Assembly (NCBI GenBank): GCA_902363455.1
Contig: CABJAC010000002.1
Coordinates: forward strand, 50,486 to 114,485
Reading direction: 5' to 3'
Length of the DNA stretch: 64,000 bases
DNA from: Caryophanales bacterium
GTDB lineage: Bacteria; Bacillota; Bacilli; Exiguobacteriales; Exiguobacteriaceae
Both the position numbers and the translations under genes were made by a program. The notes beneath the pieces are model-generated. The model made no database searches, was not told where the DNA came from, and worked only from the letters and a program-made list of their open reading frames with translations. This document shows, piece after piece, positions 61,816 through 64,000 of the stretch (within the stretch, counting starts at the first letter, position 1; each line of letters begins with the position of its first letter).

Positions 61816-61900
61816 CAGAGAATCAGTTCATACAAACTGAAGCCGTCGTAGCCGAACAGCAACAGTGCGGATGCACAATAAAATGAACGCGATCATGCGA
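61816..61900 (-). pseudogene. possible decayed or frameshifted small membrane ORF
   Basis: One frame starts MIAFIL and another continues CASALLLFGYDGFSLYELIL to a stop; dropping one base would join them into a protein of about 26 residues with a hydrophobic middle. No convincing ribosome site is present. This may be chance. Confidence 0.2.
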
Positions 61901-61993
61901 AAAAAATCATCTCATTTCTTTGGAAAACGCAATGTGTTTTTTCGGACAAAAAAAGCACACTCAAACATTTACAGGTTCGAACCATTACTTTAA

Positions 61994-62018
61994 GTTTAAG
62001 ATGTCACCACAAGGGAAA
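61994..62018 (+). promoter_or_regulatory. SigB general-stress promoter
   Basis: GTTTAA (61994-61999), 13 bases, GGGAAA (62013-62018): a full match to the SigB consensus GTTTAA, 12-15 bases, GGGWAW. It lies about 65 bases before the DUF4397 gene. Confidence 0.75.
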
Positions 62019-62088
62019 TATTTTAAGTGTAAAACGAAATGTTGGTTTGAGAGCGGAATACATCATAATATGAGAGGTGGAAAAAAAG

Positions 62089-62883
62089 ATGAAGAAATTC
62101 TTATCTTTTGTCACAGCTACACTATTGTTCGCACTTTTTGTGCTCCCAGTAGGCGCAGCGGATGACGCAATGGTTCGTGTAATTCATGCTTCACCGGATG
62201 CTCCAGCAGTGGACATCGCCGTTGATGGCAAAACAGCGGTATCAGGAGCAAAATTCAAAGATGTTACGGATTATCTCACTCTCCCAGCCGGAGAACATAA
62301 AGTAGAAGTCTTCGCAGCAGGTACAACAAAAGATCCTGTACTTTCTCAAACACTCAACATTGAAGCCGGGAAATTCTATTCTGTTGCGGCAATCGGTAAA
62401 TTAGCAGACATCAAACTTGCTGTCATGGAAGATAACGGCAAAGGGGAAGACGGCAAATCAATGGTCCGTGTCGCTCACTTTGCACCAGATGCACCAGCAG
62501 TTGACGTCGCTCCAAAAGGTGGAGACCCACTCTTCAGCGATCTTGAATTCTCGAAAGTCTCAGATTACGGCACACTGGATGCCGGCACGTACGATCTTGA
62601 AGTACGCCCAGCCGGTGCGACAGATGTCGTCAAAGCATTAGATGGTATCAAACTCGACAGTGGCAAAAACTATACAGCACTTGCAATTGGTTTACTTGAA
62701 GGAGAACCAGCATTTGACGTCCTCTTGATTCCAGATGGCGGCGAAATGGCAGCAATGCCGGACACTGGTCTCGGCGGAACAACGGAAAACTCTTCAATGG
62801 CAACAACTTGGGCACTCGTAGCACTTGCTGGAGCAGCACTTGTTGGGACAGCCTATGTCGTCCGTCGTAAAGAAAACGCGTAA
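62089..62883 (+). CDS. two-repeat DUF4397 surface protein with sorting signal
   Basis: A 264-residue exported protein. Signal peptide ends near VGAADD (about 23); two DUF4397 repeats follow (about 27-105 and 120-200), each opening with the same phrase, MVRVIHASPDAPAVDIAV and MVRVAHFAPDAPAVDVAP. The end has MPDTG at 223-227, a hydrophobic helix (ATTWALVALAGAALVGTAYV) and a RRKENA tail, the layout of a sortase sorting signal with Met in place of Leu. The next gene, overlapping by 29 bases, is a sortase, so this is probably its substrate. ATG 62089 has GAGGTGG at 8 bases; a GTG at 62077 overlaps that site. Confidence 0.88.
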   Translation: MKKFLSFVTATLLFALFVLPVGAADDAMVRVIHASPDAPAVDIAVDGKTAVSGAKFKDVTDYLTLPAGEHKVEVFAAGTTKDPVLSQTLNIEAGKFYSVAAIGKLADIKLAVMEDNGKGEDGKSMVRVAHFAPDAPAVDVAPKGGDPLFSDLEFSKVSDYGTLDAGTYDLEVRPAGATDVVKALDGIKLDSGKNYTALAIGLLEGEPAFDVLLIPDGGEMAAMPDTGLGGTTENSSMATTWALVALAGAALVGTAYVVRRKENA

Positions 62884-63466
62884 TCTTCTTTTACTCTGTA
62901 CCGTGATGCTTGCTGGGTGTGGAGGAGCAGAGAAACCGGCTGCTCCGTCCGTACCACAGTCAGAGGAACCGGCATCACCTGTCGTCGAGCAACCGAAGCC
63001 AAAATCAACTGAGAAACAGACGGAACCATTTGTTCCGGCACGTTTACGTATTCCGACCATCGACGTGGATACGAAAGTAGAAGTCGTCGGGAAGGATACG
63101 AAAGGGCGAATGGACGTACCAAAACAGACGGATCAAGTCGGGTGGTACCAGTATGGGGCGAAAGCCAACCAGACCGGCAATGTCATTTTGGCGGGTCATT
63201 TAGATGATGCAGATGGACCGGCAGTTTTTTATGATTTGGCGAAGGTCAAGCAGGGACAGCGGATTGAAGTGAGTTCAAAAACGGGTGAAAAAGTCTCATA
63301 CGTGGTGACAAACGTGAAGTCTTATCCCGTTGATCAAGCACCTGTCGGATCGATTTTTGGTGCGACACTTGCACAACGTTTAACCTTGATTACTTGTGTC
63401 GGAACGTTCACCCAATCGAAAGGGTACGATGAACGATTGGTCGTGACGGCGGAACAGGAGAAATAG
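62855..63466 (+). CDS. srtF: class F-like sortase with lipoprotein signal
   Basis: A 203-residue transpeptidase. The catalytic triad is His115 in VILAGHLDD, Cys181 in LTLITCVGTF and Arg194 in YDERLVV, and the DGPAVFYDLAKVKQGQRIEV stretch after the histidine is class F-like. The N-terminus reads LLLLCTVMLAGC: a lipobox with Cys22, so the enzyme may be lipid-anchored rather than held by a transmembrane helix. A Pro/Glu/Lys linker (about 28-60) spans the wall. ATG 62855 lies within the DUF4397 gene with only a weak ribosome site, implying coupling. Confidence 0.88.
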   Translation: MSSVVKKTRNLLLLCTVMLAGCGGAEKPAAPSVPQSEEPASPVVEQPKPKSTEKQTEPFVPARLRIPTIDVDTKVEVVGKDTKGRMDVPKQTDQVGWYQYGAKANQTGNVILAGHLDDADGPAVFYDLAKVKQGQRIEVSSKTGEKVSYVVTNVKSYPVDQAPVGSIFGATLAQRLTLITCVGTFTQSKGYDERLVVTAEQEK

Positions 63467-63515
63467 CAAAAGGACCGATCCGTAATGGATTGGTCCTCAG
63501 ACTGAAGACAAAGTA

Positions 63516-63719: not shown

Positions 63720-64000
63720 ATGATGGGAAAAAGAGACCAACATCATCGTTCTGAGAACATCACCATCACATTGGAACAATTGGTCCCGCAGGACCATCTC
63801 GTTCGAAAAGTGGACCAGGTCATGGACTTTGAATTCATCTATCCTTTAGTAGAGAAACTGTATTGTGAAAATAACGGAAGACCTAGTATCGATCCTGTTC
63901 TATTGATTAAGATGGCACTTCTCCAATACCTGTTTGGTATTCCATCGATGCGTCGGACCATCAAGGAGATTGAGACGAACGTCGCGTATCGGTGGTTTCT
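63720..64000 (+). mobile_element. IS1182-family transposase, 5-prime part
   Basis: The first 93 codons of a transposase running off the window. TLEQLVPQDHLVRKVDQVMDF, YPLVEKLYCENNGRPSIDP and MRRTIKEIETNVAYRWF are the N-terminal DUF772-type region of IS1182-family transposases. GAGGAGG precedes ATG 63720 at 7 bases. The left terminal inverted repeat of the element was not identified with confidence. Confidence 0.85.

Follow-up and report, generated by a model that had tools for sequence, protein, structure and literature searches.

The locus described here raises the question of whether two overlapping genes, one for a secreted DUF4397 protein and one for a sortase, encode a substrate and the enzyme that attaches it to the cell surface. 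They lie in a stretch of 64,000 nucleotides, referred to as the window. From the comparison of related loci we consider it quite probable that the two form such a substrate-enzyme pair, in which a lipid-tethered sortase attaches the DUF4397 protein to the surface via MPDTGLGG. An earlier, sequence-only reading had seen in this locus a stress-induced module, driven by a full-consensus SigB promoter and serving one dedicated substrate. That interpretation is partly borne out by the comparison: what emerges is a conserved pairing of a lipoprotein-type sortase with its probable substrate, which is neither a conserved SigB module nor demonstrated to be exclusive. The features are collected in the table.

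Features of the DUF4397-sortase locus, with groups of related loci referred to in the text
Feature	Position or loci	Strand	Basis
Conserved upstream element TTTACA-N16-TTAAGTTTAAGATGTCACC, probable promoter/operator (inferred)	61968..62008	+	pattern in 30/33 upstream regions; alignment
SigB-like string GTTTAA-N13-GGGAAA	61994..62018	+	sequence; strict match in 5/33 upstream regions, window included
Shine-Dalgarno-like GAGGTGG before DUF4397 gene	62074..62080	+	sequence
DUF4397 protein, 264 aa, presumed sortase substrate	62089..62883	+	Pfam PF14344, 2e-47, two stretches
SPase I-type signal peptide (residues 1-23, the last three VGA)	62089..62157	+	by eye
Best DUF4397 match, residues 27-141	62167..62511	+	profile match; structure model
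Second beta-sandwich repeat, about residues 121-216	62449..62736	+	structure model, structural matches
Sorting motif MPDTGLGG, residues 223-230	62755..62778	+	no variation at P, T, G or the later GG across 13 aligned sequences, one of them the window
Hydrophobic stretch and basic tail RRKENA	62797..62880	+	sequence; model helix 236-263, low confidence
Class F-like sortase, 203 aa	62855..63466	+	Pfam PF04203, 2.5e-23; NCBIfam class F best, below cut-off; model with sortase fold
Lipobox LAGC, Cys22	62909..62920	+	pattern in 19/19 g1 rows (window included), 0/11 g2 rows
Catalytic His115 codon	63197..63199	+	invariant in 115/115 class F-like sortases
Catalytic Cys181 codon	63395..63397	+	invariant in 115/115 class F-like sortases
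Catalytic Arg194 codon	63434..63436	+	invariant in 115/115 class F-like sortases
Helix-free partner loci	L058, L059, L132-L135, L138, L140, L142, L143, L145, L148, L149		
Helix-free partner loci, continued	L151, L154, L156, L158-L163, L165		
Start-lacking f3 DUF4397-sortase pairs	L202-L206, L208, L210, L219		

Throughout, g1 denotes the genus of the window (Exiguobacterium) and g2 its sister genus, while L, G and P numbers denote loci, genomes and database homologues; SUB2 is the partner protein of the second class F-like sortase. Most counts refer to 115 class F-like rows, drawn from the matches listed rather than from full tables, which comprise the window, L001-L030, five second-sortase loci of the family (L045, L048, L060, L062 and L064), L051, L054, L058, L059, L095-L165 (L102 twice), L171, L176 and L188. 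The set does not take in L065-L094, the majority of the family's second sortases or the duplicate rows L047, L050, L055 and L061; L056, whose frame is short but whose neighbour bears a motif, was removed by a length filter. Signal peptides were judged by eye.

The first gene encodes the two-repeat DUF4397 protein that had been recognised earlier, scoring 161.1 bits against a Pfam cut-off of 30.6 bits. Its end reads as a cell wall sorting signal, with the MPDTG pentapeptide, a hydrophobic stretch and a C-terminal RRK. The fold is shared with the extracellular domain of PepT1/PepT2 and with AlgF, at sequence identities of 17% and 14%, respectively; these are likenesses of fold only, from which function cannot be derived, and comparison of DUF4397 with solved structures by sequence gave no match at an E-value of 1. 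Going by the fold alone, we would guess that the DUF4397 part is a beta-sandwich module that probably serves in adhesion or as an adaptor.

The second gene starts with an ATG inside the DUF4397 ORF, overlapping it by 29 nt, and no strong Shine-Dalgarno sequence was seen by eye at this ATG. That it encodes a sortase with intact His, Cys and Arg, as previously read, was confirmed by the Pfam domain, by the invariance of the three residues and by a predicted structure (pLDDT 83.6) that matches solved sortases of several classes, the best being 5k9a (E-value 8e-10). Its assignment to class F stands in part: NCBIfam NF033748 (class F) is the best-scoring class model, at 131.9 bits against a cut-off of 166, a threshold that was passed, among the matches listed, by none of the 398 Bacilli genomes searched. 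We call the enzyme class F-like because its score stays below that cut-off while class F remains the best class and database sources label relatives “class F sortase”. Sortases, including class F, are well known; the first class F example came from Propionibacterium acnes, and Actinoplanes missouriensis has four. The His, Cys and Arg residues and the sortase fold are common to class F sortases and the window enzyme, while many Bacilli members differ from the known ones in bearing a lipobox pattern. Four class F-like sortases (L045, L051, L060 and L062) are long, about 300-325 aa, and have an extra C-terminal part which by eye resembles fibronectin type III, a candidate assignment.

Sortase matches were found in 44 of the 61 genomes searched, including all 37 of the same family, and 36 of these 37 also have DUF4397, each time adjoining a sortase by coordinates. 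In the nearest relative, G001, the sortase copy is 99% identical to that of the window. G017 is the exception: the DUF4397 gene is missing and the sortase (L055) has lost its signal sequence, its catalytic part remaining open; downstream of this locus lies what we take to be a transposase-like ORF. Beyond the family, the pair occurs in four others (f3, f15, f33 and f58), of which f3 is perhaps Planococcus-like, a guess from the named matches P0242 and P0247, and a helix-free version of the DUF4397 protein is encoded near a sortase in two more, f52 (L176) and f54 (L188). The claim that pair and tail would be conserved together thus holds within and beyond Exiguobacterium. Further DUF4397 loci agree with it. 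Thirty-six were present among the matches listed, with tails judged by eye over the last 55 residues; 33 had neither sortase nor motif and 3 had both. A further locus, L057 of G051, again had neither, so that all three sortase-bearing loci are tagged while 34 of 37 lack both. In 49 of 50 pairs the sortase frame is offset from DUF4397 in the same way; relative to their sortases, SUB2 and the helix-free partners occur in all three frame offsets.

Some smaller observations concern the same genes and their surroundings. P0263, one of 23 matches and 506 aa long, joins a DUF4397 and a sortase domain in a single frame, with GGVETGAGG in its middle portion. It was considered as a natural DUF4397-sortase fusion and set aside: by eye this portion seems to be out of frame, and the protein is therefore not counted as proof of fusion. 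DNA similarity of the window to L047 stops near 63497, and 63720-64000 presumably holds the start of a transposase-like gene.

Evidence for pairing also comes from the tag. A same-strand neighbour with the strict motif (M/A/L)PxTGxG is present at 108 of the 115 class F-like loci, and in 95 the neighbour carries the form with GG. Under a loose pattern, which takes in three deviating rows (L100, L139 and L188), a motif-bearing ORF on the same strand ends at most 700 nt from the start of the sortase frame at 111 of the 115 loci; the same pattern was found at 5 of 115 in a control of same-strand ORFs ending up to 1400 nt after the sortase, and at 22 of 115 for opposite-strand ORFs. Among the 111 tags, P is present in 111, T in 109, G in 111, the second G in 110 and the third in 98, and the first residue is M in 94, A in 11 and L in 6. 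Four of the 115 rows are partnerless, namely L018 (in G017), L124, L127 and L129, the last three of which have SUB2 genes elsewhere in the same locus. The other Exiguobacterium loci listed have tails of the form [MA]P[DE]TGxGG, with the sortase frame overlapping DUF4397 there also, and MP[KQ]TG[ML]GG tails occur in homologues named as Priestia koreensis, Metabacillus, Bacillus mangrovi, Peribacillus, Ectobacillus and Alkalihalobacillus. Judged from these sequences, the tag is (M/A/L)PxTGxG(G), so the MPDTG tail described earlier is conserved but was drawn too narrowly.

Existing profiles cover this tail incompletely. The best model for the window is NCBIfam NF058571, a GVDTG sorting domain, at 24.1 bits with a cut-off of 29; 42 of the 61 genomes match it at an E-value of 0.01 or better and 8 exceed the cut-off, yet that family reads GVDTG where the window protein reads MPDTG. 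PF00746 (Gram_pos_anchor) did not match the window protein at an E-value of 0.001, nor was there a match in G001 or G010; the tail of the relative in G027 passed its cut-off (22.7 bits). Motif, helix and basic tail are shared with classical LPxTG signals. The differences are M in place of L, a conserved GG two residues past TG, and, in one sortase clade, partners that have no helix.

This clade (SH-aLRT 98) comprises 23 loci with small upstream proteins in frames of 65-142 codons; it was recovered in a quick tree of 143 columns with many open forks, from which 19 near-copies of the family were omitted. The small partners are often His/Lys-rich and apparently secreted, and end 3-6 residues past PxTGxGG, typically as MPKTGMGGASN, with no membrane helix. 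As the DUF4397 proteins of L176 and L188 likewise end shortly past the tag, the feature common to the partners is the tag and not the helix. A different peculiarity was found in f3, where 8 of 20 pairs have no ATG, GTG or TTG before the hydrophobic core of the sortase lipobox signal, unlike the window sortase, which has its ATG. TTT CA(A/G) stands at the end of 18 of the 20 DUF4397 genes, with no more than one further codon before the stop, and the other 2 have GTT CAA and one codon more. The missing starts would be accounted for by non-standard initiation or by a +1 shift at TTT-C. Tentatively, and as something possible rather than probable, we suggest that many Bacilli class F-like sortases are lipoprotein transpeptidases that recognise a (M/A/L)PxTGxG(G) tag for which a helix is dispensable, with freely secreted substrates in one clade and perhaps a frameshift fusion in f3.

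The window sortase begins MSSVVKKTRNLLLLCTVMLAGC, with a basic n-region (KKTR), a hydrophobic core that at about 10 residues is, by eye, short for a membrane anchor, and the lipobox at Cys22; by pattern this resembles the start of a bacterial lipoprotein. Lipoproteins made by the Lgt/Lsp pathway have the same basic n-region, short hydrophobic core and LAGC. Counted by a regular expression that includes weak forms such as VARC and AAAC, a lipobox is present at 68 of the 115 class F-like loci of Bacilli, as LAGC in 34 of the 68. The frequency of the pattern means that it is not peculiar to the window, so that the earlier description of a lipobox sortase is upheld except as a specific trait of this locus. 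By partner, it accompanies 36 of 48 DUF4397 proteins with a helix tail, 11 of 38 SUB2 proteins, 18 of 23 helix-free proteins, neither of the 2 DUF4397 proteins with a helix-free tail, and 3 of the 4 partnerless sortases. All 20 f3 pairs, read from the rows listed, have it (the 48 already include 12 of these genomes), as do 44 of the nearest 46 database homologues, the exceptions P0016 and P0045 being shorter; some more distant homologues (e.g. P0070) have lipobox-like starts, which are absent from many others.

Both genes, the motif, the lipobox pattern, the catalytic residues, the conserved overlap and the co-occurrence can be read directly from the sequences. For lipidation, cleavage, acceptor, coupling and specificity we infer the following sequence of events. 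The DUF4397 protein would be exported and held briefly in the membrane by its C-terminal helix, while the sortase, exported as a lipoprotein, would be tethered through a lipid on Cys22. It would recognise MPDTGLGG, or more widely (M/A/L)PxTGxG(G), Cys181 would cut between T and G, and the DUF4397 protein would be transferred to a surface amine acceptor, probably peptidoglycan. The overlap, being conserved, points to translational coupling as the way in which the sortase is made, at a level below that of its substrate.

Of the alternatives to this scheme, one concerns the tether. The Cys of the window sortase might be incidental, its N-terminus being an ordinary cleaved signal or a short anchor that is not lipidated. 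The g2 counterpart, whose N-terminus resembles an SPase I-type cleavable signal or an anchor without this Cys, argues that the enzyme works without it, and the lipobox is missing in all 11 g2 rows, in 27 of the 38 SUB2-paired loci and in both helix-free DUF4397 loci, so lipidation is not essential to this type of pair. For the window itself we nevertheless regard a non-lipidated enzyme as unlikely, as the pattern recurs across many families, the core is so short, and the lipobox is kept in every g1 row (the truncated G017 row being excluded from the 19). Substrate choice leaves more room for a different reading, since the idea of one dedicated substrate was not borne out: two class F-like sortase matches each were found in 36 of the 37 family genomes, and there are further TGxGG-tailed proteins. 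In five loci (L045, L048, L060, L062 and L064) the second sortase adjoins SUB2, a protein of about 446-456 aa without a Pfam or NCBIfam match over cut-off, whose tail is of the same kind as that of the DUF4397 protein. G001 has four sortase-domain matches in all, and any of the three other sortases could act on the DUF4397 substrate, which speaks against the pairing; the same genome has the PxTGxGG DNA pattern at five places (control: one), and of three inspected one is an unpaired SUB2 copy. These observations would fit a DUF4397 protein processed mainly by the second sortase, or a short sortase that serves several TGxGG substrates. We think this somewhat unlikely, given that the overlap is constant, that DUF4397 and the short sortase are present or decayed jointly, and that g2 genomes hold just two or three PxTGxGG pattern matches each. 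Ahead of the TGxGG-tailed SUB2-like genes in L048 and L052 stands what is presumably an anti-sigma-factor-like gene.

At 61994-62018 there is a SigB-like string, which is not a confirmed SigB promoter. Only 0.08 matches to GTTTAA-N12to15-GGGWAW would be expected by chance in the window, and the strict string is also present in four near relatives (L001-L004), so one could suppose a SigB stress operon in the window's own species, the -10 part having drifted in relatives; eight g1 rows (L010-L017) do show AGGAAA or CGGAAA in place of GGGAAA, as read from the rows listed. Membership of the SigB regulon calls for a consensus conserved in relatives, however, and the strict match is confined to those 5 of the 33 upstream regions, relatives have not kept the -10 part, and g2 rows have neither a strict nor a loose match. 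The 33 regions are those of the window and of 32 family genomes; DUF4397 is present in 36, from which the duplicates L032, L033, L035 and L036 were removed. What is conserved in 30 of them is another element, TTTAC[AG]-N16to18-TTAA[AG]TT[TAC]AA[GT][AG]TGTCA[CT]C (TTAA[AG]TT..AAGATGTCACC, with small variations), the miss of L021 being artificial (a misplaced start). The GTTTAA half of the SigB-like string sits within this element, which explains its retention. SigB control as a conserved trait was accordingly rejected, and even for the window's own species it seems to us very doubtful; the promoter claimed earlier is present as a string of full consensus and fails as a shared feature. The conserved element appears from its sequence to be a promoter of the housekeeping type, overlapped by an inverted repeat; a consensus scan listed no sigma-70 site there. 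Of 25 Exiguobacterium genomes in which its 3' half was sought, 23 have it at the DUF4397 locus, and elsewhere in the 25 there are six one-mismatch sites, compared with four for a reversed control pattern, so that no other copy is convincing and a regulon is not defined. At 19 of 20 upstream loci chosen for pairs from other families (all but L188, and some with misplaced starts), there was no copy of the palindrome, and two loose SigB-like matches were noted.

The enzyme-substrate pair that we propose bears on a class of sortases whose role is unsettled: PMC13251363 states that it is unknown what class F enzymes do physiologically, while the review PMC12445088 assigns sortase F to pilin assembly. 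According to PMC13251363, two class F genes of A. missouriensis also adjoin genes for proteins with a signal peptide, membrane helix and basic tail; these neighbours are reported to have no recognisable pentapeptide, whereas the Bacilli partners have MPxTGxGG. A neighbour with a clear motif is a direct candidate substrate for a class F role. Literature searches for DUF4397 with sortase, for MPKTG with sortase and for a natural lipoprotein sortase, most subscription journals being outside their scope, found nothing among the titles listed; phrase matches for the last, in PMC1586193 and PMC9928477, concern other things, and the 12 titles listed, of 13, for the tag motif string were unrelated. 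As far as these searches reach, recurrent lipobox sortases, the extended tag and helix-free tags are new. If lipid-tethered sortases and helix-free tags prove real, neither the sortase transmembrane helix nor the membrane-held substrate, both textbook features, is general, and a short C-terminal tag on soluble proteins is potentially useful for protein labelling.

Two further observations were made upstream of the pair. A string AGCACA(C/T)TC occurs 5' of the DUF4397 genes at L114, L122, L130, L164 and L171 and, in the window, near 61955; it may be a shared regulatory site. On the minus strand, part of a gene for a LysE-type transporter survives at 61818-61955 (tblastn 2e-4), and at the same place in G001 there is what we take to be a complete pair of Lrp/AsnC-type and LysE-type genes, divergent from the DUF4397 gene.
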